From Phallus indusiatus (taxonomy: Eukaryota; Basidiomycota; Agaricomycetes; Phallales; Phallaceae): a stretch of 64,000 nt of DNA. The notes under the pieces were generated by a model that was given only the letters and a program-made list of their open reading frames with translations, had not been told where the DNA came from and did not search any database. Below are positions 36,710 to 62,610 of this stretch, one piece after another. The DNA lies in contig JAQFWX010000038.1 in NCBI GenBank assembly GCA_027605045.1, forward strand, positions 1 through 64,000. Reading direction: 5' to 3'. How positions within the stretch are numbered: position 1 is the stretch's first letter; every line of letters begins with the position of its first letter. The translations under genes and the position numbers were made by a program.

Positions 36710-37221
36710 ATGAGTAATATCTGCTCAATCCAATTTTTTCCTACCGCTGCAACACACGATCCATCTTTCACTAACCATCTGGATGACTTGTGGAATGAAA
36801 CGTCCGAGAAGTCGACGGGCGTTCCTTCTTATCTCTTCTCTAAATTAGGGTTATTCATAGTTCTTAGGTGTGAAGTTTTGTCTGAAGAACATGACCGATA
36901 ATCATGCCCCATATCCGCGTTTTCTTTAGGGCTATAGAGGGCCTATAATTTGGGGAACTCCGCATCATCACACCAGAGGAGGAAGAGTTGACATTCGGCA
37001 GCGCCGATAAAAACATTTTTTTGCCTTTGAAAGCTGAACTTCGAATAAATCGCGTTTTATTCTGGACCAGAGTGCTCCTGTTCACAGATCTCGGCTTTGA
37101 GGAAGCATATATGCACGGTGATGGTGTGTTTTCATACACTCAACTTCCGAAGTCAATTATCCTGAATCACTGCCCGATGCCATGATAGTAGACTGAGACG
37201 ATATTTCAACGTTTCTTAATG
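36710..37221 (+). pseudogene. N-terminal part of a second CFA-synthase-like gene
   Basis: Tandem degenerate paralogue of the gene at 33835-35916. It keeps the start (MSNICSIQFFPTAATHD against MNSIYSTQLLPTAETHQ), the first intron position, and the stretch PLKAELRI...FWTR...DLGFEEAYMHGD. An in-frame TAA at 36946-36948 replaces the conserved Lys-Ile. Homology continues through the third exon and stops at the 25-kb insertion; the bases 37214-37221 are the left copy of its target-site duplication. Confidence 0.82.
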
Positions 37222-37315
37222 CACTTCAGGTGACCTACACAATACCCAAAAGCATAAACATGGTAAGGTGATAGTCGTACCTAAATGGTACGGACAATAG
37301 ATGACTGTCCGTGGC
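37222..37315 (+). repeat. Left terminal inverted repeat of the 25-kb element
   Basis: Matches the reverse complement of 62386-62482 with roughly 85% identity by eye. Shared blocks include TACCCAAAAGCATAAACATG, ATAGTCGTACCTAA and CGGACAATAGATGAC. Confidence 0.85.
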
Positions 37316-37560
37316 ATTTTAAGGTAGTGCCCAGCGCCCCAGGACACTATGTATATACTGAAAAAAATAAATTTTATTCCCAATGCCCGGAGGGCACTAT
37401 TAGTGTGTAAACAGCGCCCTAATCTAAATATAGTGCCCTTGAATGTAAGCCGGACGATGTGTATCGCCCTAGGCATCATAGCACGTCCTGGTACTGCCCG
37501 GCGTGTATAGATAGTGTCCGCTTCTGAGAATGACTTTCAGATATTGCCCTATACATATGT
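37316..37560. repeat. Left subterminal motif zone
   Basis: Contains many copies of TAGTGCCC, TAGTGTCC and their complements at irregular spacing. This mirrors the zone at the other end of the element and suggests clustered transposase-binding sites. Confidence 0.55.
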
Positions 37561-37752
37561 GTACCTATTAACTTGATATTTTTTCTAACCTTTGTATAAT
37601 TTAATCAATGTAATATAATTATGATGGCCTTGAATAGAATATAATGGCATTCGAGTTGTCTAAGGCCTTATCACTCAAGTAAGAACAATGCACGAACTAA
37701 ATCAATTGAATGTACTTGGATAGTTTGTATATAAAATATGCTACTAAGTAAT

Positions 37753-38303
37753 TTACATACTCCGGAGCCGCTTTGTTATATGATTGTCTTCAAAGCTATT
37801 GTCTTGATCAGCAGCTTCTAATCTCCCAAACTCAATGCTTTGCCCTGACTCCATGATCTCAATAGCCTCTACTAGCCCCTCGTCCTCCATAAACTCAAGT
37901 TCAGTACCTTCATTACTATCAATTTCATCATCCTGATTATTCCTTAAACTATCCCACGTTGGTTCAATTTCAGATGGCTGTCTAGCTAGCACTTCCTCCC
38001 CATTCGAGTCGAACAGATGAGCCTGGTTTCCCCATGTTTCCATGGGTACTATAGCAGCAGTGTCAATACTCCAAATTGTTTTCAAATCCAAAATTTCAGA
38101 TCGTCGTTGTTTAATACAATAAACGATTCCTTCTGATTCTGTGTAATTTTGAATAAATAACAAAAGAAAAGATTAAAGCAATATACCTTTATATTTCTTG
38201 AGGACACAATTTAAAACTTCTAGCTCTTCACGGACCCAGGTTTTCAGGTTACAGAGTTCACGCTCGACCCTAGTCTTCTCTTCTTCTGCTCTGCCTCTGT
38301 TTA
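37753..38303 (-). CDS. C-terminal fragment of an unknown acidic protein
   Basis: Two minus-strand exons, 38188-38303 (open at its 5' end) and 37753-38138, separated by a GTATAT...ACAG intron. The first encodes a basic/acidic helix (EEEKTRVERELCNLKTWVRE), the second an Asp/Glu-rich tail ending RLRSM. The upstream part is cut off by an inverted-repeat sequence beginning at 38304. Its position some 500 bp inside the left end makes it a candidate remnant of the 25-kb element's own protein. No domain is recognised. Confidence 0.45.
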
Positions 38304-38460
38304 CAGCCGTTTGCAGACTAGTTTGCACTCCGACAAGTCGCGTGTCGGATGCTCAAAAAATAGGGTCGAAAGACCGGGTTTTCCTGGCTGAACTGCTGAT
38401 TGTAAATTAGGAGTATATTAGTAGAAAATGTTTCTAAGATGTATTTCGATTTTTTGAATA
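38304..38460 (+). repeat. Diverged copy of the Tc1-like element's terminal repeat
   Basis: Starts after a TA dinucleotide with CAGCCGTTTGCAGACTAG and follows the inverted repeat at 53204-53433 (CAGCAGTTTGCAGACTCG) through the TAGGG(T)TCGAAAGACCGGG block, then diverges. It is an older relative inserted into the gene at 37753-38303. No matching right end is found nearby. Confidence 0.6.
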
Positions 38461-38625
38461 CAAAAAATTATGATATTTGAGTGATCTGAAAAAAACCGGG
38501 TTCTCTGACTTTATGAGCTTTTTGGGACTGAAGGTACTAGGTGGGAAAATTGAGCCGTTGTTTCCGAGTTCTTTATGGCTCAGCGGTTAAATTGCTGCTT
38601 CACTCGATTATTGTTTGGTTGTGGG

Positions 38626-38936
38626 AAACGGAGAGTGAAAGTAAAATATGGAAATGATAAATAAAATAGAAACGAAATGATGCCGATGATAATAAATAAG
38701 AAAATGAGAGATGGCGGTAGCGTACCCTGACACCAGGCGCCCAAACCGAACCTAAGCGACGTGATGTCACGGGCATCACGCCGGGTACGAGCGCGCGAGC
38801 AGAGAAAGTGAAATAGAGACAGAACAAGGAAACGGAGAGTGAAGGTAAAATATGGAAATGATAAATAAAATAGAAACGAAACGATGCCGATGATAATAAA
38901 TAAGAAAATGAGAGACGGTGGTAGCGTACCCTGACA
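38626..38936 (-). repeat. Truncated, partly duplicated LTR-like repeat
   Basis: Two overlapping pieces of the 400-bp family also seen at 42219-42617, both in minus orientation and each ending ACCCTGACA (near 38733 and at 38936). The TGTTAGGG end is missing. Probably the product of recombination between nested copies. Confidence 0.65.
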
Positions 38937-39070
38937 ACCTCGGGATCTGATTTTGAAGCGACACATGCTCAAAATAAGGCCAAGGTTCTGAAACAAAGTC
39001 AACGTATGTGGTCCAATATCGGTACTGAGGAGGAGATTGAAGAACAGGACCTAGCTGAATATGAGGCGGA

Positions 39071-39470
39071 TGTCAGGGTACGCTACCACGTCCCCTCATT
39101 TTTCCTCATTTATTATCATCGGTATATATTCCCCTCTACTTTATTTATATTTCCCATATATTATCTCCACCCTCCGTTTGCTCCCTCTGTCTCTATTCCA
39201 CTTTCTCTACTTGCGCGCGTCGCGCGCTCGTACCCGGCGTGACGCCGTAGGTGTCACGTCGCTTATGTTCGGTTTGGGCGTCTGGCACTTAGCTGTGTCA
39301 GGGCCGCACGCCGCGCTATCGTTTTTCATGTATATAGTCGCTATCCCTAGAGTGAGGGTCCCTAAGCTTGTTCTCTTAGGATCCCCTCCCTCTAGGTGAG
39401 TAGTTAGTTCTCCCCCAATATAATTACCTTAGGATCCCCTCCCTCTAGTCTGAGCTGAGTAGCCCTAACA
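39071..39470 (+). repeat. LTR-like insertion A (400 bp)
   Basis: Runs from TGTCAGGGTACGCTAC to GAGTAGCCCTAACA with 5-bp duplications GCGGA on both sides. It interrupts an exon whose frame is restored on removal. TG...CA ends plus a 5-bp duplication indicate a solo LTR. Confidence 0.85.
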
Positions 39471-41618
39471 GCGGACGTAGTTGAAGAAGGCCCTGCAAAG
39501 CGTCGCACTACTACCATTTCCACATACAAATCTAAAGGATCTCTGCAAAATAAAGTTGTTCAAGGCGATGCCAATCAACAGCCGCGGAGCGAGAAGTTTA
39601 AATCGGGACCACTAACTGCAGAGGAAAGTGCTCAGCTACGCGAAATCATTGAGCAACAGGACAAGAACATCGCTGACTTCGCTCGCTCGATCAACTGTGA
39701 TCCTCGAACTATCTTCAACAAAGTTTCCGGCAAAGAGATGTTGAAACGGACGAATCGAAAGAGTCCTTGGAACTCCTTCTTGCAGCTCAAAAGAATTGAG
39801 AAAACAAAGGAAGGTGTTCACCTTTCCCACGCACAGTTTCTGGAGCAAGCACAAAGAGAATACCGGGAATTAATAGCCACAGCAGGGTCTAATCGAGAGA
39901 GTCACACACCTGACGCTGATCCCGAAAACGGTGACAATGTACAGAGCAGAGCAGAGGATGATGTAAACTTGTTACTAGAGGAGTTAACGGCCAAGGGCGA
40001 GACAATCGACGAACTTTTGGCACAAAGTGTGCGTCGTGAAGGAAATATTAGTTTGATAATGCAGTGCTATGCTAACAAGCTTATGAAACAAGTGAGTCAC
40101 ATTCTCCATCAATTTTATTTCAATGTGATCTAATGTACATCTGATAAGTTTGCTGATATTGATCGACGATTTGGAATCAAATGCATTGCACTGATTACTA
40201 CGTTAATTGATGCTGATCGTCAAGCTACAGCCAGCAGTACATTCGCGACAAGCAACAGTGTGATTGATGGCCTTCTCAAGTCAAAGGATGTAAACGTAGA
40301 ACAATGTATTAAGACGATGAAGACATTGATCAAGTAAGTCAAGTTTGCTGTCATCCTGAGTTATAACTGCGTCACTTACCGATTACTTTTACAGTGCAGT
40401 GGAACTCAGTCACATGAATGAAGGAAACCCAAGTACAGAGAATGAATCAATTGATGTCTCTGTTACTTTGAAGAAGGCAAAAGGAAAGTCCAAAAAGGCG
40501 ATCAATGCTGGCTCTCCCAAGGAAAAAAGTGCAACAGAACTACGAGATGATAAACGTAAAGATATCAGGGCAGCGTTTCTTGAGTGGTTGGGTTAGTATT
40601 AACTATTGATCATATAAGTCATCCTGACATTTTTTATTAGCTAAAGCTGGTGTGCCTGCCTTAGTGACAAATAAGGAACGATTTAGGTGGTCTAACCTTC
40701 TCAACATTATGTTTGAAAATCGTATCTGTTTAGTTGGTTGGCCCAGCGGGATCAAACACCCTGTAGAAGGTTATCTGGGCAATAACTGGACCCCACGATT
40801 ATTGAGCAACGAGCAGCTTGATGCGCTCCACCAGTGCATCAAAGAGACACCGGACGAGGCACCGTATTTTCGTCAATGGGATGAAAGTAAGTTCTTAAAA
40901 GTTATATTATGATTTCTGCTGATGTCGCTTGAAGAATACATGTCACAAACATTAGACGAACTAGGTGACATGCCAATGATATATTCTTCCAAGTGCAAAG
41001 CACTTCGAACTCTTTCCGAGTGTCCTGCATGGTGCAAATTAAGAAACAAAGCTATACCTGTGAATCGTGCTACTTCTAAGCCCAAGCAATTTTCGCAGTA
41101 CTCATCTGATGTAGAGGTCATAAACATTCCTAGCTCGAATGACATAGAGGAAACAGCCAAGCATGCTACTAAAAGTCCAGCTGATCATGAGCTAGACGAT
41201 TTTGACTTTCCTCCTACAAGACTTAAAATCCCTACATCACCTCCATCATCCCATCACATTCAGCAAACTCCTGGTGAGAGCCGCAAACGGAAACTCCCAA
41301 TTCTGGACGAAGAAGAGGAGATCGAGCAAAGACCACAGAAGACTGCAAGGACTGTACCAGAATTGACTGCGCCATCTACATCGAAAGCTACATGTGATGA
41401 TCAGGCGAATAAAAATTATTCCTCAATGGGTGGGCGGCCTACTGGTAAGACATTCACCAATCTCCAACAACGACTGCTGAGCAGAGTACAAGGAGGTCCA
41501 CCGCCTATACCACATTCTTCAAGACCTACCTCAACTACCATGAAATACAGTCAACTGCCTCCTCCAGTTCCTCCACGCCCTAGTTCCTCTGTCGCTGAAC
41601 AATCTGAACTGAGGACAC

Positions 41619-42641
41619 TGTCACGACCCTCGTGCCACCCGATCCTAATCCGGACCTCTCTGAGGTCCGGCACCCAATCCCCGTCCATATTTAGTATATC
41701 CGCCATGTCCGAGCGTCAGTACTTGCCCAACAGTGCGTAGTCCGTTATTCTGTACATGTCCGGTAAGTCCGAGGTCCGGACTTCGTCCGGACTAGGACAT
41801 TTCCTTATGGGGACATTCTGTCCGGAGCATTAGAAAGCAAGTGCCAGATATGTTTCTGGTGCTGTGCAACTAGTCTCCTTTTAGTTATATCTCCTTTAGT
41901 TCTAGTAGTCTAGCTTTTTGTATTTAAAGCCCCCAGACTTCGTCTGGGGCTCCCCAGTCTGAATATCAAGTCGTATTCAAGTCTATTTTAAGTCTAGCCC
42001 AGTTAAACTCTTTATAATCAAATCTTCTCTTATCTATCTCATCTAAAGTCCGCTCCCAGTACTTGTCCGGACCTGCCCGGACTACGTCCGGGCTGTCTCG
42101 GACTTTTAGTCCGAAATTAAGGGATATCCAGGGTCGATTGAGCCGGCGCAGCACATAAGCTGAAGCCAAGCCCCTTCTGTTCCGTAGTCCGGACTCCCCG
42201 GACTTCCGCCCAGACGCCTGTTAGGGCTACTCAGCTCAGGCTAGAGGGAGGGGATCCTAAGGAAATATATTGAAGGAAAGACTAACTACTCACCTAGAGG
42301 GAGGGGATCCTAAGAGAACAAGCTTAGGGACCCTCACTCTAGGGATAGCGACTATATACATGAAAAACGATAACGCGGCGTGCGGCCCTGACACAGCTAA
42401 GTGCTAGGCGCCCGAACCGAGCCTAAGCGACGTGATGTCACGGGCATCACGCCGGGTACGAGCGCGCGACGCGCGCGAGCAGAGAAAGTGAAATAGGGAC
42501 AGAACAAGGAAACGGAAAGTGAAAGTAATGGACGGGAAATGTAAATGGAATAGAAATAAATATATACCGATGATAATAAATGAGGAAAATGAGGGGACGC
42601 GGTAGCGTACCCTGACAACGCCCGGAACACGGCGCGTGACA
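41619..42641. repeat. Solo LTR L (about 620 bp), itself interrupted by insertion B
   Basis: TGTCACGACCC...GCGCGTGACA with GACAC duplicated at 41614-41618 and 42642-42646. Rich in TCCGGAC motifs that form short hairpins. Insertion B lies inside it. Confidence 0.78.
42219..42617 (-). repeat. LTR-like insertion B (399 bp)
   Basis: Same family as A, opposite orientation, TGTTAGGG...CCCTGACA, flanked by ACGCC on both sides. It lies within solo LTR L, so it is younger. Confidence 0.85.
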
Positions 42642-42649
42642 GACACAAC

Positions 42650-43045
42650 TGTTAGGGCACGACCGTTCAGCGATAAGACTTAAGGATCGGACTGCTACTA
42701 TAACCCAGTAACTCAGTCTATAATAGCGCAAGGAACTACTCATGCACGCACAGTTGTATATATACATGATTACACTATCTCTAACCAATAGCTATCAGGT
42801 GCTTTATCTACCAATAGGAAGGTCGGTAGCCAAGGACAATACGGATGACATAGAGAAAGAGGGAGATAGGGCAGAATGGAGTGAACGGAGAAACGGGGAG
42901 AGTTCGGGAGAATACGCGAGGGGTAAGTACGGACCGGTATACCGGGTACCGTATGACCGACGTAGAGCGCGTAGGCATCTAAGTAGGTTATACTATACTA
43001 CGCTAATATACTAGAATGACCGTTAACCAGAGACGTACCCTGACA
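42650..43045 (-). repeat. LTR-like insertion K1 (396 bp)
   Basis: TGTTAGGGCACGACC...ACGTACCCTGACA with ACAAC duplicated on both sides. Near-identical to the copy at 54534-54929; a second family sharing only the ends with A and B. Confidence 0.85.
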
Positions 43046-43130
43046 ACAACCAGCCAATACAAGAATTTCCAGTCACTGGAGACATTGTAAGGTTTGATTA
43101 AAAAAAGGACCCTAAGAAAATTATGGTTCG

Positions 43131-43774
43131 TGTCAAGATCCGAGACCGTTCGAGATCGCGAGATCGAGGGATCGAGAATCGAGAGATCGGAGGATGAGGA
43201 ACTTGGCTTCAACTTATGTGTTGCGCCCGCTCCAAAGGCCTGAGAGTATTCCTCAATTTGGATCGTGACGAATCAGCACTCACAACGAAGAACAATCCGG
43301 AGATAACGAAGACTTTGGCGACTCCGTCGCCAAAGGCGAGAGATCGAGAGAATCGAGAAAAATCGGGTTTCGAGATAAAGAGACGAGTTGTAATTCAAAG
43401 AGGTTTGAAATAAAATGAAATATATTTGAATCGAATCAGAGTTCGATTTCAAGACGACTTTGTATGGTATTTACAGCGAGTTTAAATACTACAAAGTGAT
43501 GCAGGGTCGAGTACAAAGAAAGTACTAATTCGGAAAGTACATAATAGTACTCGAGGAAGTCGTGAGGTTCGTTAGAATCATAAAGAAAGAAATAGAAAGT
43601 ATTCTATTTATATCATGGAACCTCACCGATCGTCAAAGTGAATAAATCGGTAATCGGTGTTCGAGAGATCGTATAGAGTGCGATCTCTATAAGGTTCGTT
43701 CGTTCGAGTTTGAAAAGAATGTGAAATCGAATTAAATCGTTAAATCGATGTCACGAGAAAATCGGCTCGTGACA
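43131..43774 (-). repeat. 3' LTR of the Gypsy element
   Basis: TGTCAAG...CGTGACA as read on the plus strand; matches the LTR at 51308-51951 throughout the compared stretches. GATCGAGA-type short repeats near its end. Confidence 0.92.
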
Positions 43775-43778
43775 GTAC

Positions 43779-43789
43779 TCCCTCCTTAA
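43779..43789 (-). promoter_or_regulatory. Polypurine tract
   Basis: Read on the minus strand, AAGGAGGGA lies just before the 3' LTR, the usual place for plus-strand priming of reverse transcription. Confidence 0.6.
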
Positions 43790-44048
43790 GATCGAGCCCT
43801 CGAGATCTCCGTGTCCAAAAATCCAAGTGAAACTATTACGTTTCTGTCTGAAACGCAGTGAAAAGTTTCGAAAAATCAAGAAAAGAAGCGTAACCCATGA
43901 AACGCGCGAATTTTCTTCACTGAAAATAAAGAAGTTCCAGTGAAACGTGTCGGATCAGAAAAAAAATGTCCGCTCTGTCGGTTAAAATTCATCAAACGAC
44001 GGCGTTATCCAAAAAAGGATTCGGCGGGGCATGCATGAGCGGAACCAG

Positions 44049-44100
44049 TCACGTGATGAATCTGAGTTTGAAAATTCTGAAACGCGTCAACTTGTATAAA
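44049..44100 (+). promoter_or_regulatory. Promoter of the antisense gene
   Basis: TATAAA at 44095-44100 lies 65 bp before the ATG at 44165, with a palindromic TCACGTGA (CACGTG box) about 40 bp upstream. Inferred from motif and spacing. Confidence 0.5.
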
Positions 44101-44164
44101 GTCAGTTGGGTTTTTCGTCTTCGGCATTACTCAATTGCCCTTCAATCGGTACAAAATTCGCTCT

Positions 44165-45471
44165 ATGTCTTCTTCATCCTCTACTTCTCTCTCTACTTTT
44201 GACGCTCGTGCCAAGTGGGCGATCGAAAATCGCAAGATCTATTTGTTGCCAGCTCTCGAAGGCGTCGAAATCATCCCTCGCAAGATCGACGATGATTTCG
44301 ATGATGAAGATTTCGTTAACGCCCAACGTCATTACGAAAAGAAATATTTCGAAGCGAAGAAGAAAATCGATGAGGAGAAGGCAAAAGAGGAGGCGCGTCG
44401 GAAGGAAGAGGAGAGGAAGAGATTGGAAGAGGAGGAGAAGAAGCAGGAGGAGGAGAGGAAGCGTAAGGAAGAGGAGGGGCGAAAGAAAATGGAGGAGCTG
44501 TTAGAACAGTATCCCGAGTTGAGACCGGTGCGTGATCTTTTTTCTTTTCGGTTCGATTTCTGACTTGTAATTTTCTAGGCGAAGCCGAAAAAAATGGTCG
44601 TTGAGTTGCCAAAACTCAATCCACAACCAGTCGCGGGTCCATCGAAAAGGGCCCGATTACAAGTCGAAAGTGAAGATTCGCCACCACCACCAAAACGCGT
44701 TCGAATGACCGATCTCGAACCAAGCGAAGGGGGTGCTCTATACCCCAAATCGTGCGATCAATGCGAGAAAGAAGGTTACGAATGTCGAAAACAAGTTCCG
44801 GCAAAAACAATCTGTGTTCGCTGTCGCGAACAAAAACGCAAATGTTCGCATAATCCTCGTCCAAAGTTCGGTCGAGGTCAAAATCGCGGTAAAGTGGTCC
44901 AAAAGACCACAAAACAATACGTATACGACGACGAGGACGAGATCATTTCGTTGGAAGAAGAGCCCTCCCGACCCGCTCCACCGATCGAAAACTTCGCGAC
45001 GCGGGACGACATTAGAATGCTGACCGAGGCCGTTCGGGCCATGCACCGAACGTGTGAAATGGGCTTCAACAAGCTCGTTCAGCTGGCCATGACTCAAGAT
45101 CGGACCGATCCTTCGGCATTGGCCATTCGTCAGAGTGTTGCCAACACTCCAACCAATGGTCGTCGGGGTTTGCCTGCGTCGTTGCAAGAGCCATTGGTCA
45201 AGGCTCCGCTACCTCGGTACGCAAGAGAGGAAGATTCGGGGACGAGTTAGTAAGTATCGGAGCTAACTTGTCTCCATCTAGTCGCGAGTACGGTGAAAAG
45301 GGCGAGGAGTTCTGGTTCGGAAGATCGGACGAAATCGTTGAGGAGAACGCGGGGAGGAAGGACAAAGGAAAAGGCAAGGATAAGGAACAGGGTTCGGAGG
45401 AGATCGCAGGGGAGATCGAGGAGAACGAAGGAGAAGGAGAAAAGGGGAAGATACAGCAGAAGGAAGTGTAG
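44165..45471 (+). CDS. Antisense accessory protein with coiled coil and Zn2Cys6-type cluster, 407 aa
   Basis: Encoded inside the Gypsy element on the strand opposite gag-pol. Exons: 44165-44527, 44579-45249 and 45282-45471. Residues 50-115 form a charged coiled coil of KEEERKR type. The next exon holds six Cys in CDQCEKEGYEC and CVRCREQKRKC, spaced C-x2-C-x6-C-x9-C-x2-C-x6-C, which fits the fungal binuclear zinc-cluster DNA-binding motif. The tail is Glu/Lys/Gly-rich. Intron 1 (51 nt) has good signals; intron 2 is only 32 nt (GTAAGT, CTAAC, TAG), and without its removal the protein stops at 45250 (344 aa). It may be a captured host gene or a regulator of the element. Confidence 0.7.
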
Positions 45472-45791
45472 AAGGGGAAAACGAAGGAAATGACAAAATT
45501 GTGGAGGGGACTGTGAACGAAAACGAAGCTCCGGCCCCAACGTTACAATAGTGTAATCTAACTACTAATTTTGTACTACTATAATGTTTTCTTTTGTTTA
45601 TCTTTGTATCTTATAGAATTTTCTTCAAGTTAAAATCGTGTGAAATCGGAAAAGAAATCGTAAGAGATCGAAAAAGGAAGAGATTGAAACAGAACGAAAG
45701 AAAATCGTTACATGTAATTCTACCTTAAGTCAATCAAGAGATCGAAAGAATCGAAAATAAAATCGAAAGGAAAACGATACGTCAAAACATT
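45472..45791. other. Non-coding spacer between antisense gene and pol
   Basis: The 3' ends of the antisense gene and of pol converge here; AT-rich, no gene seen. Confidence 0.5.
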
Positions 45792-48700
45792 TTATTTTTT
45801 AACCAAGTGACGCCAGTTGGGACCGGGTTTGTCTGGATAAGACTTGTGAAAGTCTTCGACAAGTTCTTTCGCGTGCTCTAATTCGGTGGCGATCAGCCAA
45901 GAGGATTCTTCATCAGTACCGTCATAACCAAGCCATTTAACCAAATACAACAGCGGGCAAGCGCGCCTTTTGTCGATCTTGGAATCGAGGATCGCTTCCA
46001 CTTCGTATTCGATTTCACCTTCGATTTCAACAGACGGAGGTGGTTCCTGAACACGATTGGGAATCGAATTATCAGTAGCTGGTTCAAGCATAGAAACATG
46101 AAACACAGGATGAACGGTACGAAAGTTTTCAGGTAATCGAAGCGTTCGCGTAACCTTATTAGGGATAGCAATTACTTCGAACGGACCAAGGTACTTGTCA
46201 GACAGCTTTCGCGAAGGTCTTGTAGTTGAAAAGAAATCGCCTTTCACGAAGACCTTTGACCCAATCGGGAAATCGGGAGATCGCGAACGTTTCTTGTCTG
46301 CTGGGGCTTGGTACCGTTTCTGAGAGAGTTCGATCTGAAACTTGAGTTCGGAGTGAATTTCATCTAATCGAGAGACGAAATCGAGAGCGCGAGAAGAAGT
46401 GAGGGGAAGATCGTGGTTGACTGAAAGACGAGGGTGATATCCTTTGTTCGCAAAGAAAGGGGTAACACCTGTAGTAGCACTTTCAGCATTATTGAACGCA
46501 AACTCTGCAAGAGGCAACAAATCCGCCCAATTATCTTGCTGATAATTGCAATAGATACGAATGTACTGCTCTAGAGTCTGATTAGTTCGTTCGGTCTGAC
46601 CATCGCCCTCAGGGTGGTAGCCCGAAGTGAAATGAAGTTCCATTTCGAGAGCTTTACCCAAAGATCGAAAGAAATGAGAGACGAATTCTGTACCACGGTC
46701 TGACGTGACGTGAGATGGAATGCCATGTTTCGAGAAAACATGTAAAACGAAGAGCTGAGCAAGATCAGCTGACGAAATCGTATCGAAAGTTGGAATGAAA
46801 AGAGCGTATTTCGTAAGTCGTTCTACAATAACGAGAACAGAGGTGAAACCATTCGAGGGAGGCAGGTGTTCGATGAAATCCATGGAAATCGAATCCCAAG
46901 GACGAATCGGAATCGGGAGTTGTTGCAAGAAACCGTAAGGTTTATGTCGCTGAGACTTACCACGCATACAAGGGATGCATGACTTGCAAAATTCTCGGAT
47001 CATCGTGCGCATACTTGGCCAAACATATTCGCGTCGAATCAGCGAAAGTGTCTTGTTCTGGCCGAAGTGGCCAGACAAAGGGTGGTCGTGCTTGTACTGC
47101 ATAACGCGCAATCGTAAATCGAGAAGATCGGGGACGTAAATCCTGCCATCACAACGAAGGAAACCTTTGGAATCGACAGTCCAACGAGGATTGGAACTGC
47201 GGGGAAGATGACGTTTAGCAAATTCGTCGTCTTTCAAAACAGATAGGATATCGAAATGAAGCTTATCAACATCCATAACCACGGCAACACGAGCGAAGAT
47301 GGGGTGCAAAATCATAGCATTGATACACGCCTTGAGTTGCTCGGAGGTAAAAATCGACTTTTCGTTGATCGGATTAACGGACGCATAGTCGTTTACTCCC
47401 TCCTTAGCGTAGACGTCCCATCGTCTAGTCAAAGAGTCAGGTTTCGTGCCGAGTTTGCCGGGTCTGAAATTAATCGAAAGGTTAAACTGAGACAAGTATT
47501 CAGACCATCTGGCCTGACGACGAGTCAAAACCTTAGTCGTCGTAAAATAGACCAAGTTCTTGTGATCGGTGTAGACATCGATAGGGAAAACGGAACCTTC
47601 GAGATAGTGTCTCCATCGCTTGAACGCCTCAAAAATCGCAAGGAGTTCTTTGTCGTGCACATCGTAGTTCAGTTCGGGACCTGTAAAGGTTCGAGAGTGA
47701 AAAGCGATCGGATGGAGTTCGTCGTTCTCGTCGAATTGTGATAAAATCGCGGCGAGAGCATAGTCAGACGCGTCCGTCTCGACTATGATTGGCTTGTCGG
47801 GCACCCAGTGTACCAACACAGGGGCAGTCGTAAAGCTTTCTTCAACGTGTCGAAAGCCTGTTGACACTCATCAGTCCAGTTCCACACAATACCTTTCTTG
47901 GTAAGACGCGTCAGTGGAACGGTAATTCGAGAGTATTCATCAATAAAACGACGATAGAAATTGGCAAATCCAAGGAAAGACTGAACGTCTTTGACCTTAC
48001 GAGGGGGTGGCCAAAGTTGAATATCCTTGACTTTAGCAGGGTCCATGGCGAGACCTTGCGGGCCTAGAACGAATCCGAGAAATTCGACGCGATCTCTGGA
48101 GAATTCGCATTTCTTCAGAGAAGCAAAGAGACCATTCGCACGAAGTCTTGCAAGGACTTCTCGAACGTGTTCGCGATGAATTTCGGGGGAATCGGAGTAA
48201 ATCAAAATATCGTCAAGATAAATAACGACATACGAATCGAGTAGATCACCAAAGATTTCGTTCATAAATCGCTGAAAAGCCGCAGGCGCATTCGAAAGAC
48301 CAAATGGCATAACGAGCCATTCGAAAGAGCCATATCGCGTACGAAAAGCAGTCTTCCATTCGTCGCCTTCAGCTATTCGAACGAGGTGATAAGCATGCTT
48401 CAAATCGATTTTGGTGTAAATTCGAGCTTTGCCAGGAGCGTCAAGAAGATCAGAAATCAAGGGAAGTGGATACTTGTCTTTCTTTGTGAGTCTATTAAGA
48501 CCACGAAAATCGACACAAAGACGAAGTGATCCATCTTTCTTCTTAACGAAAAGAACAGGTGCTCCATGAGGTGAATTCGAATGTCGAATGAAACCATTGG
48601 CGAGATTTTCATCCAAGAATTCGCGCAAAGCTTGAAGCTCAATCGGAGAGAGGGAATAGATAGGACCTAAGGGAGGAGTGGTCCCATCTTCTAACTCGAT

Positions 48701-51271: not shown

Positions 51272-51307
51272 TCTGCAAGCCTAAGGAAACGAGAGGTCTT
51301 GAAATAC

Positions 51308-51951: not shown

Positions 51952-51956
51952 GTTCG

Positions 51957-52200: not shown

Positions 52201-52205
52201 CTTAT

Positions 52206-53203: not shown

Positions 53204-53433
53204 CAGCAGTTTGCAGACTCGTTTGCACTCCGACGAGTCGCGAGTTCGCGTGCTGAAAAATAGGGTTCGAAAGACCGGGTTTTTTCAGCTCAACGGCTGA
53301 TTGTAAACTTGGACTTATTTAGTAAAATTTACTCTCATCTCATGTATCTATTTTATAGTAACTTAAAAATATTAAAAATACGAAGTTTGAAAATTAACTC
53401 GGTCTTTCAGCGGATGCGATTCGTGTGACATGC
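53204..53433 (+). repeat. Left terminal inverted repeat of the Tc1-like element
   Basis: Matches the reverse complement of 59807-60036 with only a handful of differences, all near the inner end. Confidence 0.92.
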
Positions 53434-53441
53434 TGTAACGG

Positions 53442-53752
53442 ATCCACCGCATGCGGTGGATTGAGTATATGCCACTTAGGCATATGCAGAGGGCGAAGCC
53501 CTCTGCAGTAATTACTATTATTACTTCTAATAATAGAGGCGCTTAACGCCTCTGGCTCGCCGTGACGCGGCGAGCCATTATGTAATAACTGTACATTAGT
53601 AGTAGTTACGCGCGTGCTGATTCAGCACATGCAACTTGTTTTACTCCACAAAAAAATACAGCACTTTGGTCTGTTACTTGTGGCGTGAAACTACAGCGTG
53701 ATATAAACTGTGTACCGCAAGTGGTACACTATAAAAAGTAACGAAATGTTAC
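53442..53752. repeat. Array of consecutive perfect hairpins
   Basis: Directly inside the left inverted repeat. Stems: 53442-53461 (20-bp perfect palindrome), 53467-53485 (7-bp stem), 53485-53507 (10-bp stem, GAA loop), 53515-53536 (9-bp), 53535-53553 (7-bp), 53553-53577 (10-bp), 53614-53628 (7-bp), 53710-53729 (7-bp) and 53738-53752 (5-bp). Each stem has its own sequence. Between 53467 and 53577 they abut or share a base. Confidence 0.85.
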
Positions 53753-54533
53753 ACATGCAGTCACCTTTCGTGTTGCCGCCCACACGTTTTCTTCACTCTT
53801 CTCATGACCAAACCGACAGGGAATCCTCCCGGTTGTCCAAGAAAAAAAAGACCACATGAATCCTCAACATCATCTACTGCAGCTGCTTCCCAACCTCCAA
53901 TTCGCTCAACAAGATTAGCACAGAAGCAAGCCTTGGTGGCTGCATCATCGGATGCCCAAGGAATAGCACATGCATCGCAAGATTCTGGAAGAGGCAACTT
54001 GGATGGCAGTTTGGAAAATGAGCTGGATGATGAGAGGGAACCAGATGAAGAAGATGAAGAAGATGAGGAAAGGGAGGAGGAGGAGGAGGAGGAAGAGGAG
54101 GAGGAAGAGGAGGCGGTGGTCCCAGTGGAGGAACCAGGTATGTTATTCATCTAGTTCTGGTTACTCTTTGTGGCTGACAAGCAAAGTATGGGATGTACCC
54201 TTTCAGGTTCCAATTCGATCTGATGCTGTTGACATCGAATATTTCTCGACAGACTCTGGAATGGCATCCTTCATGGTTCGGATTTCAAAAGTGATGCAGA
54301 CACCATGGGATCAGTTACATTTGACATACAAACTATCGTCAGATTCGAAAGATGCATTGCCACGTGTCCTCTCCACTACGATGAACTGGATTACTTTGAT
54401 GAAGCGTGCTAAGCAGGAGTTATGTAGGCTTGATGATCGTAGACGTCTTGTGAAAGGGAGAGTGCCCTTGAAGGATCATTTTGAGGTTTTCTTGTTTGAT
54501 GGTCAGAGTGCGGATATTGTGAAAGGAGCAACT

Positions 54534-54929
54534 TGTTAGGGCACGATCGTTCAGTGGTTAGACTTAAGGATCAGACTGCTACTATAACCCAGTAACCCAG
54601 TCTATAATAGCGCAAGGAGCTACTCATGCGCGCACAGTTGTATATATACATGATTACGCTATCTCTAACCAATAGCTATCAGGTGCATTATCTACCAATA
54701 GGAGGAGCGGTAGCCGAGGACAATACGGATGACATAGAGAAAGAGGGAGATAGGGCAGAATGGAGCGAACGGAGAAACGGGGAGAGTTCGGGAGAATACG
54801 CGGGGGATAAGTACGGACCGGTATACCGGGTACCGTATGACCGACGTAGAGCGCGTAGGCATCTAAGTAGGTTATACTATACTACGCTAATATACTAGAG
54901 TGACCGTTAACCCGGGACGTACCCTGACA
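54534..54929 (-). repeat. LTR-like insertion K2 (396 bp)
   Basis: Second copy of the K1 family, flanked by CAACT on both sides (54529-54533, 54930-54934). Confidence 0.86.
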
Positions 54930-55136
54930 CAACTGATTCGAGTGACACGGTTTCGAAGGGAAAGAAAAAAGCGAGCAAAGTCCCAGCAACCAAAGCAACC
55001 ACAGTAGATCTTGCAGCTGACAGAACAACAAACTGGGTCAAAAACCTCCAAGCAAAATACGAGTGTGAAGCCCATAATAAAGACTTGTGCTATGTGTCTT
55101 CAAATGGTGTGCATCTGAAAATCACAATGGCTAATC

Positions 55137-55536
55137 TGTTAGGGCTACTCAGCTCACACTAGAGGGAGGGGATCCTAAGGTAAATATATTGGGGGAGAAC
55201 TAACTACTCACCTAGAGGGAGGGGATCCTAAGAGAACAAGCTTAGGGACCCTCACTCTAGGGACAGCGACTATATACATGAAAAACGATAGCGCGGCGTG
55301 CGGCCCTGACACAGCTAAGTGCCAGACACCCAAACCGAACATAAGCGACGTGATGCCTACGGCGTCACACCGGGTACGAGCGCGCGACGCGCGCAAGTAG
55401 AGAAAGTGGAATAGAGACAGAGGGAGCAAACGGAGGGTGAAGATAATATATGGGAAATATAAATAAAGTAGAGGGAAATATATACCGATGATAATAAATG
55501 AGGAAAAATGAGGGGACGCGGTAGCGTACCCTGACA
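55137..55536 (-). repeat. LTR-like insertion C (400 bp)
   Basis: Family of A in minus orientation. Its flanks share ten bases, ATGGCTAATC (55127-55136 and 55537-55546), instead of the usual five. Confidence 0.84.
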
Positions 55537-55912
55537 ATGGCTAATCTTAGCCTCTGGGGTATTCTTATTGTAGGTTCACTTTTATTTGTCAATTGCTATC
55601 TAACCTGAATCTGAACAGGAAAATGGACATGCAGATATTGATGAACTTCCGAAGGAATTGGGTCAATTACAGGCTCGAGAAGTTGCACGTGGCAAAACAG
55701 GATCATCTGCTCCATCTGCATCCATGCCAACATCCACGCTTCATCCAGCTCCCACACCCAATCCAGCTTCTATACCTCATTTGGCCCCTACATCCCATCC
55801 GGCACCTACACCCAATCCGGCTTCCACACCTTATCCAGCTCCCGCACCCTATCCAGCTCCCACACCCTATCCAGCTCCCACTCTCCACGCACCATCTCAA
55901 TTACCTCCCTTC

Positions 55913-56309
55913 TGTCAGGGTACGCTACCGCGTCCCCTCATTTTTCCTTATTTATTATCATCGGTATATATCTATTTCTATCTTATTTATATTTCCCATG
56001 CATTACCTCTACCATCCGTTTATTCTCTCCGTCCATATTTCACCTTCTCTACTCGCGCGCGTTGCGCGCTCGTACCCGGCATGATGCCCGTGACATCACG
56101 TCGCTTAGGCTCGGCTTGGGCGCCTGGCACTTAGCTGTGCCAGGGCCGCACGCCGCGTCGTCGTTTTATGTATATAGTAGCTGTACCTAGAGTGAGGGCC
56201 CCTAAGCTTGTTCTCTTAGGATCCCCTCCCTCTAGGTGAGTAGTATAGTTACCTTCCAATATATTACTTAGGATCCCCTCCCTCTAGTGTGAGCTGAGTA
56301 GCCCTAACA
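55913..56309 (+). repeat. LTR-like insertion D (397 bp)
   Basis: Family of A, plus orientation, CCTTC duplicated on both sides (55908-55912, 56310-56314). Confidence 0.86.
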
Positions 56310-56322
56310 CCTTCTATCCTGG

Positions 56323-56674
56323 TGTCACGGTACGCTAGCACCTTTTCCGATTATTCAATTCCTTCGATTTCTTTCGGTTTCATTTCGTGTTACGATTTCC
56401 TTCATTTCCCGTACTCTGCCATTTCCATTAGTTCCATCATTTTCTCGATTTTTCAATCTCTTCGATTTTCCTCGATTTCTGTCTGTATCTCCTCGGATCC
56501 CATGGGGATCAGTCGAGCGCTTCGTGTCCTGTACTTATATGCGTTTTCCCTAGAGAGGGATACCTAAGCTTGTTCTCTTAGGTTTTCCCTCCTCTAGGTG
56601 AGTAGTTAGTCGCTGCCCCTCAATAGATCTTAGGTTTTCCCTCCTCTAGGTGTGTGCCCTGAGTCGCCCTAACA
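56323..56674 (+). repeat. LTR-like insertion H (352 bp)
   Basis: TGTCACGGTACGCTAGC...GAGTCGCCCTAACA with CCTGG on both sides. Third family; related to the LTR at 57073-57370. Confidence 0.84.
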
Positions 56675-57072
56675 CCTGGTGCACCTATGGGAAACCCATA
56701 TATGTATCCACCATATCCGCCTGTACCTTATCCACCTCCGCCAGCACATATGCATCTGTGGCCGCCAGTGCATACTGGAAGATCAAGTCGGCATTCTCAC
56801 GGTGGTAGTTCTCCACCCCACCGATCTGATCCTTCCGAAGATGAATTTGACGATCCTACAAAGTTTCCAGATATTGAAACTTGGTTTACACAGCATGACC
56901 AACGGTTTGCCGGCAAAAGCAGCACCCACATATTACTCCCCTATATTGATTCATTTATTTCTCAGAAATTTTTGCGTATATCACAATTGGCAAATCTGTC
57001 CGACAGTCAGGAGCTTGTACGCATTTGTCCGGACATGCCCGAAGGAACGGCACAGTACTTACACATGCAGGT

Positions 57073-58287
57073 TGTTACGGTACGCGAGCGCCTCGCCGAT
57101 TATTCGATCTTTTCGATTTCTTTCGGTTTCATTTCGTATTACGATTTCCTTCATTTCCCGTACTTGCCGTTTCCATTAGTTCCCTCGTTTTCTCGTTTTC
57201 TCGATCTCCTCGATTTCTTTCGATTCCTGTTTGTATCTCCTCGGATCCCATGGAGATCAGTCGGGCGCCTCATATTCGGTACTTATATGCGTTTTCCCTA
57301 GAGGGGGATACCTAAGCTTGTTCTCTTAGGTTTTCCCTCCTCTAGGTGTGTGCCCTGAGTCGCCCTAACAGTAGAACAAGCTTCTACCTTTCGGACTGGT
57401 TGTTTTTATCGTCGTTTTCTTTCGGAAACTCTTCGTCAGCAGTGTCTCAGACGTTCCCAACGCTTTTGCCCATAAAACGACCCCTCCGTCCTTCGTTCTT
57501 CGATTTCTTTCGTCATGGATCTAGAAGAGAGTGACCCTACTACTGAAAGTCGCCTCTCTGCGATTGAACAAAGAATAGAAGAGCTCGTGACTCATCTCGA
57601 CCGACTCTTCACCCCTCAGGCTCCCGCTGCCGATCCCTCTAATCCGACAAACCCCAATCCCAGAGCCTCGGCTCCAAATCCCCAAAACGAGGCGAGATCA
57701 TCTCGAAACACTCGCCCTGCTGTACCTCTCGCCTATGATGGGGATTGTTAGGGCGACTCAGGGCACACACCTAGAGGGCAGGAAACTTAAGATCTATTGA
57801 TGAACGACGACTAACTACTCACCTAGAGGGCAGGAAACCTAAGAGAACAAGCTTAGGGATCCCCCTCTAGGGCTATGCTACATATACTACGTGGAAGCGC
57901 TCGGGGACAATAGATGAGTATCGCCGCGGGATCCGAGGCGATAAAAAGGAGTTCGAAGAGGTTCGGAGAATTCGATCGGAGTTCGAATTCGAAGAGATCG
58001 AAAGGAATAGATAATAGAGAACGAGAAATGACCGAACTATAGTTTGAGTTCTCGGAACCCAAACTCGAAGTCTCGGAAAGGAATCAGAAGGGAGAAAAGA
58101 ACATCGGAACACAAGGAAATGAAGAAATAATGACACGGAAGACATGAAGCTAGTGTACCCTGACAGGGATCGCAAAAACGGCCGTACCTTCTGGAACTCT
58201 GTCGATCTTTACATGAGCGTATGCGGTGGCGATTTCCCGAATCTCAGTACCAAAATCATCTGGGTACTTTCTTACATGAATAGTGGA
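57073..58287 (+). mobile_element. Truncated retrotransposon: 5' LTR and start of gag
   Basis: The LTR at 57073-57370 (TGTTACGGTACGC...CGCCCTAACA) resembles H but lacks one internal module. After a leader, gag starts at 57515 (MDLEESDPTTESRLSAIEQR), has a coiled coil and Pro/Asn-rich linker, then VPLAYDGD; after insertion J it continues RKNGRTFWNSVDLYM and SYMNSG, the typical capsid start. It ends abruptly at insertion E (58288). No pol and no second LTR. It explains why this LTR has no target duplication of its own. Confidence 0.75.
57746..58165 (-). repeat. LTR-like insertion J (420 bp)
   Basis: TGTTAGGGCGACTCAGG...GTACCCTGACA with GGGAT duplicated on both sides; sits inside the truncated gag. 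Confidence 0.85.
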
Positions 58288-58676
58288 TGTTAGGGCTACT
58301 CAGCTCACACTAGAGGGAGGGGATCCTAAGTAAAATATATTGAGAGAACTATACTACTCACCTAGAGGGAGGGGATCCTAAGAGAACAAGCTTAGGGACC
58401 CTCACTCTAGGGGCAGCGACTATATACATGAAAAACGATAACGCGGCGTGCAGCCCTGACACAGCTAAGTGCTAGGCGCCCGAACCGAGCCTAAGCGACG
58501 TGATGTCACGGGCATCACGCCGGGTACGAGCGCGCGAGCAGAGAAAGTGAAATAGAGACGGAACAAGGAAACGGAAAGTGAAAGTAATGAACGGGAAATG
58601 TAAATGGAATAGAAATAAATATATACCGATGATAATAAATAAGGAAAATGAGGGGACGCAGTAGCGTACCCTGACA
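58288..58676 (-). repeat. LTR-like insertion E (389 bp) at a rearrangement junction
   Basis: Family of A, but the flanks differ (GTGGA and GGAAG). The left neighbour is truncated gag and the right neighbour is truncated transposase, so E probably marks recombination between two copies. Confidence 0.75.
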
Positions 58677-59780
58677 GGAAGGATTGAATACCTAAAGACT
58701 GTTAGTAATGATTTGAAAAAAGATGTCACTCTCACCTTTTTCCCCGCACGAACCTCGTGCTACGAAATGCCCGTCATCCACAAACAGACCAAGCCTTGTT
58801 CCTATATGTTGTCCGAAGATCTACCGCACTTTCGTCAACAAATACAAGCTGTTCCGGTGTGTAATTTCCGATGCGCATGATATAGTCTGCCCTTTTTGTT
58901 GTGGATCGTTCCACAGCTACTTTCGAAGCCTAATACAATCAATAAACTATTCATAAAAAGGAAAACTAGTTCTTACCTTCTTCAAGCTCATTCCGGAAGC
59001 TTTCAGAGTGCGCCAGATTGTCGAGGTTGAGACATCGACCCCATGGTGTTGACAAAGGCCTCTTGTTAGGGCTACTCAGCTCAGACTAGAGGGAGGGGAT
59101 CCTAAGTAATATATTGGAAGATAACTATACTACTCACCTAGAGGGAGGGGATCCTAAGAGAACAAGCTTAGGGACCCTCACTCTAGGTACAGCTACTATA
59201 TACATAAAACGACGACGCGGCGTGCGGCCCTGACACAGCTAAGTGCCAGGCGCCCAAGCCGAGCCTAAGCGACGTGATGTCACGGGCATCACACCGTGTA
59301 CGAGCACGCAACGCGCGCGAGTAGAGAAGGTGAAATATGGACGGAGAGAATAAACGGATGGTAGAGGTAATGCACGGGAAATATAAATAAGATAGAAATA
59401 GATATATACCGATGATAATAAATAAGGAAAAATGAGGGGATGCGGTAGCGTACCCTGACACCTCTATGGAGTTCTTTGAGTGATAAATCCGGAGTATGTG
59501 CCAGGGCACCAAGTAAATACTATCAAATGTAAGAACGGAAACGCTAAAATGCCAGAAACAAAGGACCTACATTGATTTCAGAGGTTCCAAGCCTGCGACG
59601 CTGATGACGTGTCTTTGGGACATGGCTGACAGTTCCTGACTTCTGGAATTGGGATTTTATCGATTTTATTTTGCGCACACTGACGCCAGTAAGTGCTGAA
59701 ATATAGACAACATCGAAAATAGAGAGAAGACGGATAATGACAGAGAGGAGATCCTGAGATATAGTGGCACGATGAGCCAT
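58677..59780 (-). pseudogene. Tc1/IS630-type DDE transposase, truncated and interrupted
   Basis: Starts MAHRATISQDLL at 59780. Helix-turn-helix near residues 25-45 (LTGVSVRKIKSIKSQFQKSG), then LLGALAHTPDLSLKELH, WRTLKASGMSLKK, and the catalytic second Asp in PEQLVFVDESAVDLRTTYRN, ahead of FRSTRFVRGKR. Introns follow the exon ending EIN (near 59572), the exon ending MSLKK (near 58974) and GKR. Insertion F splits it at 59064-59460 with the frame restored on removal. An in-frame TGA at 58774-58776 stands where CGA is likely. The C-terminal part with the third acidic residue is lost at insertion E. Confidence 0.82.
59064..59460 (-). repeat. LTR-like insertion F (397 bp)
   Basis: Family of A in minus orientation, CCTCT duplicated on both sides (59059-59063, 59461-59465). 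Confidence 0.86.
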
Positions 59781-59806
59781 CGATGGTTGTCACAATGAGA
59801 GTGACT

Positions 59807-60036
59807 GCATGTCACACGAATCGCGTCTGCTGAAAGACTGAGTTAATTTTCAAACTTCATATTTTTAATATTTTTAAGTTACTATAAAATAGATACATGA
59901 GATGAGAGTAAATTTTACTAAATAAGTCCAAGTTTACAATCAGCCGTTGAGCTGAAAAAACCCGGTCTTTCGAACCCTATTTTTCAGCACGCGAACTCGC
60001 GACTCGTCGGAGTGCAAACGAGTCTGCAAACTGCTG
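59807..60036 (-). repeat. Right terminal inverted repeat of the Tc1-like element
   Basis: Inverse of 53204-53433; ends CTGCTG next to TA. Confidence 0.92.
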
Positions 60037-60239
60037 TAAGGTTTTCCCAGGAAAACTCTGATATTACACAGTGTAATCTCATGCTTAAAATTAAGGTTTT
60101 TCCATGCATCTAAATTATAATAGAAATATATCTTCACAATAAATATAAAAAAGATTTTGAGAACATTCTTCAATATGAATGATGATAATGTAAGTTTCAT
60201 TCTATTCATTATTTTACTGAATGGATAATATTAATCATA

Positions 60240-60429
60240 GGCTTATATGATAAAGAATTAGTACATAATTTGACTAAGATAATTATAGCAGTATAGTGAC
60301 AATTTTACAAGCCAGAATCCCTTGACCTGAGTATTAGTTATAATATAATTTTGCAATTTGGTAAATTGTCAATAGCCTATGCCTTGAACCATAATTTTGT
60401 TAGGATCCTTTTTTTGGCTAAACCCTACA
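60240..60429 (-). repeat. Right inverted arm outside the Tc1-like element
   Basis: Reverse complement is homologous to 43051-43130 plus 51957-52200. The similarity weakens but can be followed towards the Tc1-like ends on both sides. It extends into the first codons of the gene at 60430. Confidence 0.68.
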
Positions 60430-60758
60430 ATGTCTCCAGTGAGTTTATCAATTCGCGAACCCCCACCTCCAGGCATCAGTAATCATCAACTTGCTACGGC
60501 TCGTTTTTACGGTGAGAAAGCTGGAATTCCCCCTGGCAAGGTAAGATTTATGTTCAGGAGAAATTAATTTATTATTAAAATATTTCACAGGACTTACCGC
60601 CATTGTTTTATGATATGCCACCATTTCCTTACTCGCAAGCAATGTATGATCGGTATATCAGTCCATTTATGAACAGATGTGGGTTTTCGGAGGCTCAGAC
60701 AGTTACTACAGATCTCAACAACGTTGAAGTTGAGGAAGTTGATGGTCCACTTTTCTAA
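60430..60758 (+). CDS. Small protein of 92 aa, unknown function
   Basis: Two exons, 60430-60540 and 60591-60758, with a GTAAGA...TTTCACAG intron of 50 nt in phase 0. The protein begins MSPVSLSIREPPPPGISNHQ, has a Pro/Tyr-rich middle (DLPPLFYDMPPFPYSQAMYD) and an acidic end. No domain is recognised. Its promoter side is the inverted arm, which has a diverged copy at 43 kb. The intact splice and uninterrupted frame suggest it may be one of the older genes of the 25-kb element. Confidence 0.55.
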
Positions 60759-61357
60759 ATTTGTAATATTGTATATACTCTATAATATATAGGCAACATT
60801 ATATATGTATAGCATTCATTGTTCAAGGGGCAAAAATTACACGAATCAGAGTTTATTTAGACTATATACGAACCAGCTAATATCCATTCAGATAGACCAG
60901 TGGGGTTCCCGGCAGAGTGTTTCTTAGCTTAACCCGAGGCCTCTGGTTCAATTCTGACTCAGGCCGTGTTTTTCATGTGCAAGCGGGATTGTTGGGATTT
61001 TGGCAACGATGTTAATGCAGTAAACGCTGTCCGTTACGATTAACACTGAAATTGTTTCGATCAAGCTGCCGTGTCCGGCGCAATCGGTGAGATTGGGTTT
61101 AGTCCTTGCCCAGTCTTAGTCTATGACTACTTTTTGCAAACTTAAATGTTGTTTAGCGTAGCTATATGTCATTGTAGTAATAAGAGCAAGAGTTTACCTT
61201 CTTACTGAGAACTCACACTAATTTTTAAGTGCTACATACCGATGTATGTTCTCTTCAAGTTCCTTTGTGTATTCATTTCATTTCATTTATTGATCTCATT
61301 TTTATTTACACATTTAAACATTGGAATGACACCAGCAGAGAGTTTTGAGTACTTTAC
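60759..61357. other. Non-coding part of the 25-kb element
   Basis: AT-rich; no gene recognised. A short GGTTCAATTC stretch near 60945 resembles a tRNA B box, but no cloverleaf can be built. Confidence 0.45.
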
Positions 61358-61753
61358 TGTCAGGGTACGCTACCGCCGTCTCTCATTTTCTTATTTATTA
61401 TCATCGGCATCATTTCTTTTCTATTTTATTTATCATTTCCATATTTTACTTTTACTCTCCGTTTCCTTGTTCTGTCTCTATTTCACTTTCTCTACTTGCG
61501 CGCGTCGCGCGCTCGTACCCGGCGTGATGCCCGTGACATCATGTCGCTTAGGTTCGGCTTGGGCGCCTGGCACTTAGCTGTGTCAGGGCCGCACGCCGCG
61601 TCGTCGTTTTATGTATATAGTAGCTGTACCTAGAGTGAGGGTCCCTAAGCTTGTTCTCTTAGGATCCCCTCCCTCTAGGTGAGTAGTTAGTTTCCCTTCC
61701 AATATATCGCCTTAGGATCCCCTCCCTCTAGTGTGAGCTGAGTAGCCCTAACA
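61358..61753 (+). repeat. LTR-like insertion G (396 bp)
   Basis: Family of A, plus orientation, TTTAC duplicated on both sides (61353-61357, 61754-61758). Confidence 0.87.
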
Positions 61754-61758
61754 TTTAC

Positions 61759-62385
61759 TTTACAAGCGAAGCGCAGGAACTTGAATGCATCCAGAAACAG
61801 CGGATGCTAGTATGTTTGTCTATGACGGTAAATACTTGGTGAGATAGCATCCAAAACACTACACAATCCGGCGGGCCATATTCTATATTGATGTGTCGTT
61901 CTGGGACACTATTAGCGTTCGGGACACTACACAATCCGGCGGGCCGTATTCTATATTGATATGCCGTTCTAGGACACTATTCTCACTGGTGAATAAGGAA
62001 CGGGTCGTATATACTTTCAATGGACGGTCCCGGGACACTATTCCGACTCAGTGCATAAGGTAACGGGCAGTATATTTATGCACGGACACTCCTACATTCT
62101 GGGGCATTAATTACATATTCATATAGTGTGTCCCGGATATTACGGAATTACACGGACAGTATAGGATAGGTGTGGGACATTCCAAGACAGTCTCAGAAAT
62201 GATGGGCGGTAAGTACCGGACACTACAGGATTTCGTGGACGGTATAGCACCGGTGTAGGACGTTCCATATAGATACAGGACAGTCTACAAAATGATACAC
62301 GGTAAGTATGAGCGAAGGACGTAACATGGTAAAAAACAGGCAGCATATACATAGTGTCCTAGAGGCACTATGCACAGTCCCAAAA
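61759..62385. repeat. Right subterminal motif zone
   Basis: About a dozen GGGACACTA/TAGTGTCC-type motifs in both orientations. Two near-identical units of about 65 bp, starting near 61855 and 61923, share ACACTACACAATCCGGCGGG. Mirrors the zone at 37316-37560. Confidence 0.65.
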
Positions 62386-62482
62386 GCCACGGACGGTCAT
62401 CTATTGTCCGCACCAGTTAGGTACGACTATTATCTTACCATGTTTATGCTTTTGGGTACTATGTAGGGGGGTGCCTGAAGTG
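62386..62482 (-). repeat. Right terminal inverted repeat of the 25-kb element
   Basis: Inverse of 37222-37315; ends CCTGAAGTG directly before the second TCTTAATG. Confidence 0.85.
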
Positions 62483-62610
62483 TCTTAATGCTTCATTAGC
62501 GGATTGGGACGTTTTGCTTAACAGGTTATAACATCCAACTTCTTATGTTATTGAACGAAAGATTAGCTGAAGAGTGTCAAAAGCGGTCGGTTTGACAGAC
62601 AAGAATTCCC
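62483..62610 (+). pseudogene. Continuation of the broken CFA-synthase paralogue
   Basis: After the target duplication, the stretch up to about 62605 aligns with 34875-35000 of the intact gene: GATTAGCTGAAGAG corresponds to GCATTGGCTGAAGAG, and GACAGACAAGA to the Ser-Asp-Lys codons. The frame is lost. The paralogue lacks about 550 bp between its two parts, so it was already deleted before or during insertion. Confidence 0.6.

Follow-up and report, generated by a model that had tools for sequence, protein, structure and literature searches.

We analysed a 64,000-nucleotide stretch of the Phallus indusiatus genome (assembly GCA_027605045.1, contig JAQFWX010000038.1, positions 1 to 64,000 of the forward strand), hereafter the window; its contig is labelled C138. 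A block of 25,261 bp at positions 37222-62482 begins with CACTTCAGG and ends with CCTGAAGTG, and the 8-bp sequence TCTTAATG is present, exact, immediately outside both tips. Alignment of the two ends gave inverted repeats of 128 bp at 85% identity (E 1.9e-37). The block is very probably a real insertion of a DNA transposon of the KDZ superfamily, an element that is ordinary in kind but unusually well delimited. A first-pass annotation, made from the DNA sequence alone, had proposed a single insertion event with transposon ends and an 8-bp duplication. That proposal is now borne out by exact coordinates, an empty site and a second copy; the annotation had also seen the inverted repeat but set its length too low, at about 95 bp.

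An empty target on a matching contig

The flanks of the block were compared with C78, a matching contig of the same genome. The left flank (36323-37221) aligned with C78:541045-540137 at 97% identity and the right flank (62483-63800) with C78:540144-538813 at 95%. These two matches overlap on C78 by exactly 8 bp (540137-540144), which form one TCTTAATG, the single-copy empty site that the first-pass annotation had predicted. When the window flanks were joined, 769 of 817 positions were identical to the empty site. Further to the left, window positions 27199-36092 are collinear with C78 at 96.6%. C78 lacks some 230 bp of the left flank (36093-36322); positions 36100-36305 match dozens of places in the genome and are probably a small repeat.

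C78 carries a related element of its own, described below. Approximately 77 kb rightward on C138 (139-140 kb), both flanks of that element are present in the expected orientation and the element is absent. C138 segments at ~27-36, 62-64 and 139-140 kb thus pair with C78 segments at ~551-541, 540-539 and 476 kb, again oriented as expected. Because homology in the expected orientation is found at both ends of a long stretch, C78 and C138 look like two haplotypes, judging from the parts of the contigs that were compared.

The insertion had been described as splitting a CFA-synthase pseudogene, with homology on both outer sides. In the left flank, parts of 36674-37182 resemble sequence that immediately precedes the CMAS domain of the upstream neighbour gene (~33.7-35.9 kb): 98 bp match at 70% identity (E 5e-6), and a second piece, 62 bp long, matches at E 0.029. 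This flank is consistent with a truncated duplicate of the neighbour. On the right the alignment is marginal, as only 56 bp match the neighbour gene (77%, E 8e-5) and a search for the CMAS family listed nothing on that flank, so that synthase homology there is weakly supported. The empty site on C78 is 94% identical to the window over the synthase-like stretch, and the CMAS search listed nothing at that site either. The empty contig shows the fragment in the same state of decay, which means that the insertion did not split a working gene and probably landed in what was already a relic.

A sister copy carries a KDZ transposase domain

Searching the genome with each end yielded 8 and 6 matches, the window's own counted. 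One copy, C78:476982-492448 (15,467 bp), has both ends, and its terminal inverted repeats (TIRs) span 137 bp at 85% identity. This copy codes for a KDZ transposase domain (PF18758), which scores 184.5 bits where the cut-off is 26.6 (E 2.9e-54). A CxC1 cysteine cluster lies N-terminal to the KDZ domain and scores barely above its cut-off (E 5.1e-6, 27.0 bits against 26.9), and CxC2 scores weakly (E 0.0076). The annotation had called for other copies of the ends and for a relative with a transposase, and the C78 copy is both. Given that this same-ended sister copy has a KDZ transposase domain, the element belongs to KDZ and not to hAT, which settles the earlier choice between hAT and Zisupton/KDZ in favour of KDZ. 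The duplications of 8 bp in the window and 7 bp on C78 lie in the 7-8-bp range of KDZ elements, and TIRs, reported for most KDZ members though not for Kyakuja of Laccaria, are found in both copies. For the KDZ piece of the C78 copy, 874 candidates included 518 relatives at E <= 0.001, and 11 of the 120 matches listed carry the source name KDZ transposase; no solved structure was found for it at E <= 1. The genome contains 13 KDZ matches at 8 places, C78 included.

The remaining copies are less complete. C187 and C132 have one end each, in a flank common to both, and C178 and C67 have one diverged end each, in another common flank. In the C187 and C132 copies the same left 1 kb is joined directly to the 3' part of the gene from which a stub in the window presumably derives (see below), and this layout is therefore ancestral or at least shared. 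Positions 975-5613 of the C78 element are a largely palindromic insertion of 4,639 bp that is absent from C187 and C132; without it the C78 copy measures 10,828 bp. This insertion has TG..CA ends, ACGG on both sides and a similar reading frame of ~250-260 amino acids in each arm. The end copies at C187:53297 and C132:415750 directly abut a repeat that is also found in the window block (60120-60442).

We also considered a TET/JBP gene as cargo and rejected it. A genome-wide search with PF12851 found nothing in either copy, although very divergent (PE-type) dioxygenases could escape this model. Two equally weak matches, both below the curated cut-off, lie elsewhere, at C113:3973-4332 and C162:1992421-1992780, on contigs without KDZ copies.

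The window copy is a deletion derivative filled with nested insertions

Between window positions 38303 and 38937, the C78 segment with almost the entire transposase region is lacking. What is retained is a stub of ~30-40 codons that lies at 38209 to about 38303 on the minus strand and is homologous to the reading frame following the KDZ domain in the C78 copy (DNA identity 76% over 89 bp). From its strand and place, the stub is presumably the C-terminus of the transposase. Of eight other C78-copy segments, including five taken from the transposase region, none had a match in the window at E <= 0.1. Since only a stub of the transposase gene is kept and these other pieces are unmatched, the window copy is a non-autonomous deletion derivative. 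The earlier statement that no transposase remains needs correcting as regards this stub.

The block comprises ~5.1 kb of element core and 20.2 kb of other DNA (about 80%), with segment limits that we set ourselves (Table 1). The annotated outer limits of the 25-kb transposon block stand, but because some 80% of it consists of nested insertions, "25-kb element" overstates the unit that probably moves. Among the fillers are 12 units resembling solo long terminal repeats (LTRs), ~300-420 bp long and some of them within other fillers. Nine are flanked by exact 5-bp target-site duplications (TSDs), one by a 10-bp duplication and two by none. For the unit at 56323-56674 the start was moved by one base, giving the TSD CCTGG; the unit at 55137-55536 has the 10-bp flanking repeat ATGGCTAATC. 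The two LTRs of the gypsy retrotransposon are 644 bp each and identical. The repeat at 60037-60412 has been cut up by the gypsy, LTR-like and TIR insertions, and its other pieces lie at ~43100-43130, 51952-52205 and 53072-53203. The TIR element at 53204-60036 contains low-complexity reading frames, and no transposase was detected in three of its open reading frames (ORFs) scanned against Pfam.

Table 1. Features of the window copy and its target duplications (window coordinates).
Position	Strand	Feature	Remarks
37214..37221	.	Left TSD, TCTTAATG	Single copy at empty site C78:540137-540144
37222..37360	.	Left TIR (CACTTCAGG...)	128 bp at 85% to right end
37753..38172	-	Small accessory ORF common to the C78 copy	74% amino acid identity
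38209..38303	-	Stub homologous to ORF after KDZ domain in C78 copy	tblastn E 4e-10
38304..38625	.	Remnant of TA-flanked TIR element	Ends related to 53204-60036
38626..38936	.	Partial solo-LTR-like units	At deletion junction
38937..41618	+	Forward accessory gene, several exons by translation	Homologous to C78 copy; broken by unit 39071-39470
39071..39470	.	Solo-LTR-like unit	TSD GCGGA
41619..42641	.	Solo-LTR-like unit (1,023 bp)	TSD GACAC; nested unit 42219-42617, TSD ACGCC
42650..43045	.	Solo-LTR-like unit	TSD ACAAC
43131..51951	-	Ty3/gypsy-type retrotransposon: reverse transcriptase, RNase H, integrase, chromodomain	TSD GTTCG
52206..53071	.	LTR-like unit (866 bp)	Without exact 5-bp TSD
53204..60036	.	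TIR element, 6,833 bp	TA duplication; further nested solo-LTR-like units
60037..60412	.	Right piece of repeat with inverted ends	Limits set by analyst
60413..61357	+	3' part of forward gene and downstream core	
61358..61753	.	Solo-LTR-like unit	TSD TTTAC
61754..62482	.	Right subterminal region and right TIR (...CCTGAAGTG)	
62483..62490	.	Right TSD, TCTTAATG	

Accessory genes shared by the two copies

Two further genes are common to the window and C78 copies, a forward multi-exon gene and a small minus-strand ORF. Both persist in the window copy despite its lost transposase, while the two copies differ at ~21% of DNA positions. Ratios of nonsynonymous to synonymous substitution (dN/dS, NG86) were 0.22 (219 codons, dS 0.90) and 0.19 (205 codons, dS 1.46) for two exons of the forward gene, and 0.31 (128 codons, dS 0.52) for the small ORF. 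These estimates carry no confidence intervals, the exon limits are approximate and dS is high for both forward-gene exons; the values suggest that selection acted on the proteins for most of the period after the two copies diverged.

The small ORF had no Pfam match at E <= 1, with Pfam the only protein database searched, and the accessory exons scanned had none above the cut-off. For one exon of the forward gene, 7,985 candidates were scored and none was a relative at E <= 0.001; a second exon had none either (one candidate); within the genome, the forward protein is found in the C78 and C138 copies only. Structure prediction for the two accessory exons returned a mean predicted local distance difference test score (pLDDT) of 60.5 and 39.6, and the models were unusable. 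The idea of a helix-turn-helix comes solely from an HTH_38 match at E 0.41, far below the cut-off. A literature search surfaced nothing on accessory genes of this KDZ family, which is not proof of absence. Tentatively, the pair may be an undescribed KDZ accessory module under purifying selection, made up of the forward multi-exon protein, which possibly binds DNA, and the small protein beside the left end, which is rich in Glu and Asp; they might aid movement or escape from silencing, as a counterpart of the TET/JBP of other KDZ elements; we regard this as a possibility with the odds against it.

The C78 copy has a third gene, on the minus strand at positions 491-1396 of C78:482001-492000, that is absent from the window. 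Other parts of the genome hold 10 weak relatives of it (E 6.8e-9 to 2.5e-4, identity 29-41%), some near the C132 and C187 copies, and part of the cargo is therefore not unique to this family.

Proposed history and alternative explanations

Elements of such families generally move by cut and paste, and their defective members can be mobilised in trans. Starting from the observed ends, duplication, empty site, sister-copy KDZ domain, stub and nested units with their own duplications, we infer the following order of deletion, landing and nesting. A KDZ transposon moving by cut and paste would have landed at TCTTAATG and given rise to the 8-bp duplication; the empty target survives on the matching contig. 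An internal deletion, before or after landing, would have removed all but the stub of the transposase gene. As a result of that loss the window copy could be mobilised only in trans, by a relative's transposase working on the copy's inverted ends. Retroelements and TIR elements nesting in it would have expanded the element-derived ~5 kb to 25 kb.

Several other explanations were weighed. Tips and duplication taken by themselves are not decisive. A count of 9-bp inverted tips with an identical outer 8-mer, 2-40 kb apart, returned four cases in the real window (the element and three others) and two cases over 20 first-order Markov simulations, so that a coincidence in a repeat-rich island deserved attention. 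The strength of the inverted repeat and the second copy with the same ends speak against it, the empty site refutes it, and its probability is negligible; these same three observations decisively support an insertion. An 8-bp duplication with short inverted tips would also fit a hAT-superfamily element that had lost its transposase. This assignment was dropped as highly improbable once the sister copy showed KDZ and CxC1 domains; in addition, the stub left in the window copy is homologous to the sister's transposase region, and no hAT domain was seen in the 12 scanned of the element's 37 ORFs (110 amino acids or more) or in 15 scanned pieces of the C78 copy. Transposition of the whole 25 kb, passengers already aboard, is unlikely. 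The identical gypsy LTRs mark only the gypsy passenger as recent, which leaves room for such a unit, but the 28 kb of C78 that surround the sister copy held no match to any passenger, and no second loaded copy was present among the end matches. Finally, C78 and C138 could be a segmental duplication with a paralogous empty site, given that the comparison covered parts of each contig. We consider this quite improbable in view of the long stretch that is homologous at both ends in the expected orientation. Like-scoring sets on two contigs also occur elsewhere (C187/C132, C178/C67, C7/C37 and C16/C89, to which C58 adds a third). Whether haplotype or duplication, the C78 site is a valid empty target.

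Some observations weigh against insertion of a KDZ element followed by deletion and nesting. The C78 site may possibly have arisen by precise excision rather than the C138 site by insertion, and the C138 counterpart of the C78-element site is too diverged to display a clean single target. The duplication around the C78 copy is 7 bp in register (AAGTTTT) and reaches 8 bp only when the first C of the end is counted as target. The cores of the two copies are 78.7% identical over 4,625 aligned positions in seven main blocks, a divergence by which they represent related rather than identical families. The ORF homologous to the stub has no Pfam match itself, and the breakpoints of the window deletion are concealed beneath nested units.

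Relation to known elements

Published accounts offer several comparisons. Active KDZ1-3 elements of Cryptococcus neoformans are described as ~9.2-11 kb long with KDZ and CxC1 domains, TIRs of 241, 139 and 169 bp, and TSDs of 8 bp for KDZ1 and 4-8 bp for KDZ2 and KDZ3 (PMC12810828). By that description they resemble the C78/window family in domains, TIRs and an 8-bp TSD, and in size the C78 copy without its 4.6-kb insertion (10.8 kb). They are mobile and full length, whereas the window copy has no transposase and is loaded with nested elements. A less good fit is Kyakuja of Laccaria, reported as a KDZ group with CA..TG tips that carries a TET/JBP gene, lacks TIRs and has 7-bp TSDs (Kojima 2025, PMC12730594). 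Group and tips are shared with our element; in contrast, TIRs occur in both Phallus copies, the TSD is 8 bp in the window, and neither copy has a TET/JBP match, so that the Kyakuja combination of a 7-bp TSD without TIRs is not seen here, although the C78 duplication is nonetheless 7 bp. Zisupton, compared by its description only, shares TIRs and 8-bp TSDs (PMC12730594). KDZ-type transposases of Pleurotus ostreatus are likewise described with a cysteine cluster in front, there CxC2 (PMC7641404), whereas CxC1 is the best match in the C78 copy. Non-autonomous derivatives in Marasmius oreades, for which new insertions have been observed (PMC9674265), are likewise described as internally deleted with ends kept and as probably dependent on the transposase of a relative; they are hAT elements of ~0.6 kb, whereas the window copy is KDZ.

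The locus provides a checkable fungal KDZ case, with exact ends, an exact empty target, a relative bearing the transposase domain and an anatomy of decay by deletion and nesting. Ends of this kind let the remaining family be delimited, and the conserved accessory genes offer a modest lead on KDZ cargo beyond the transposase.

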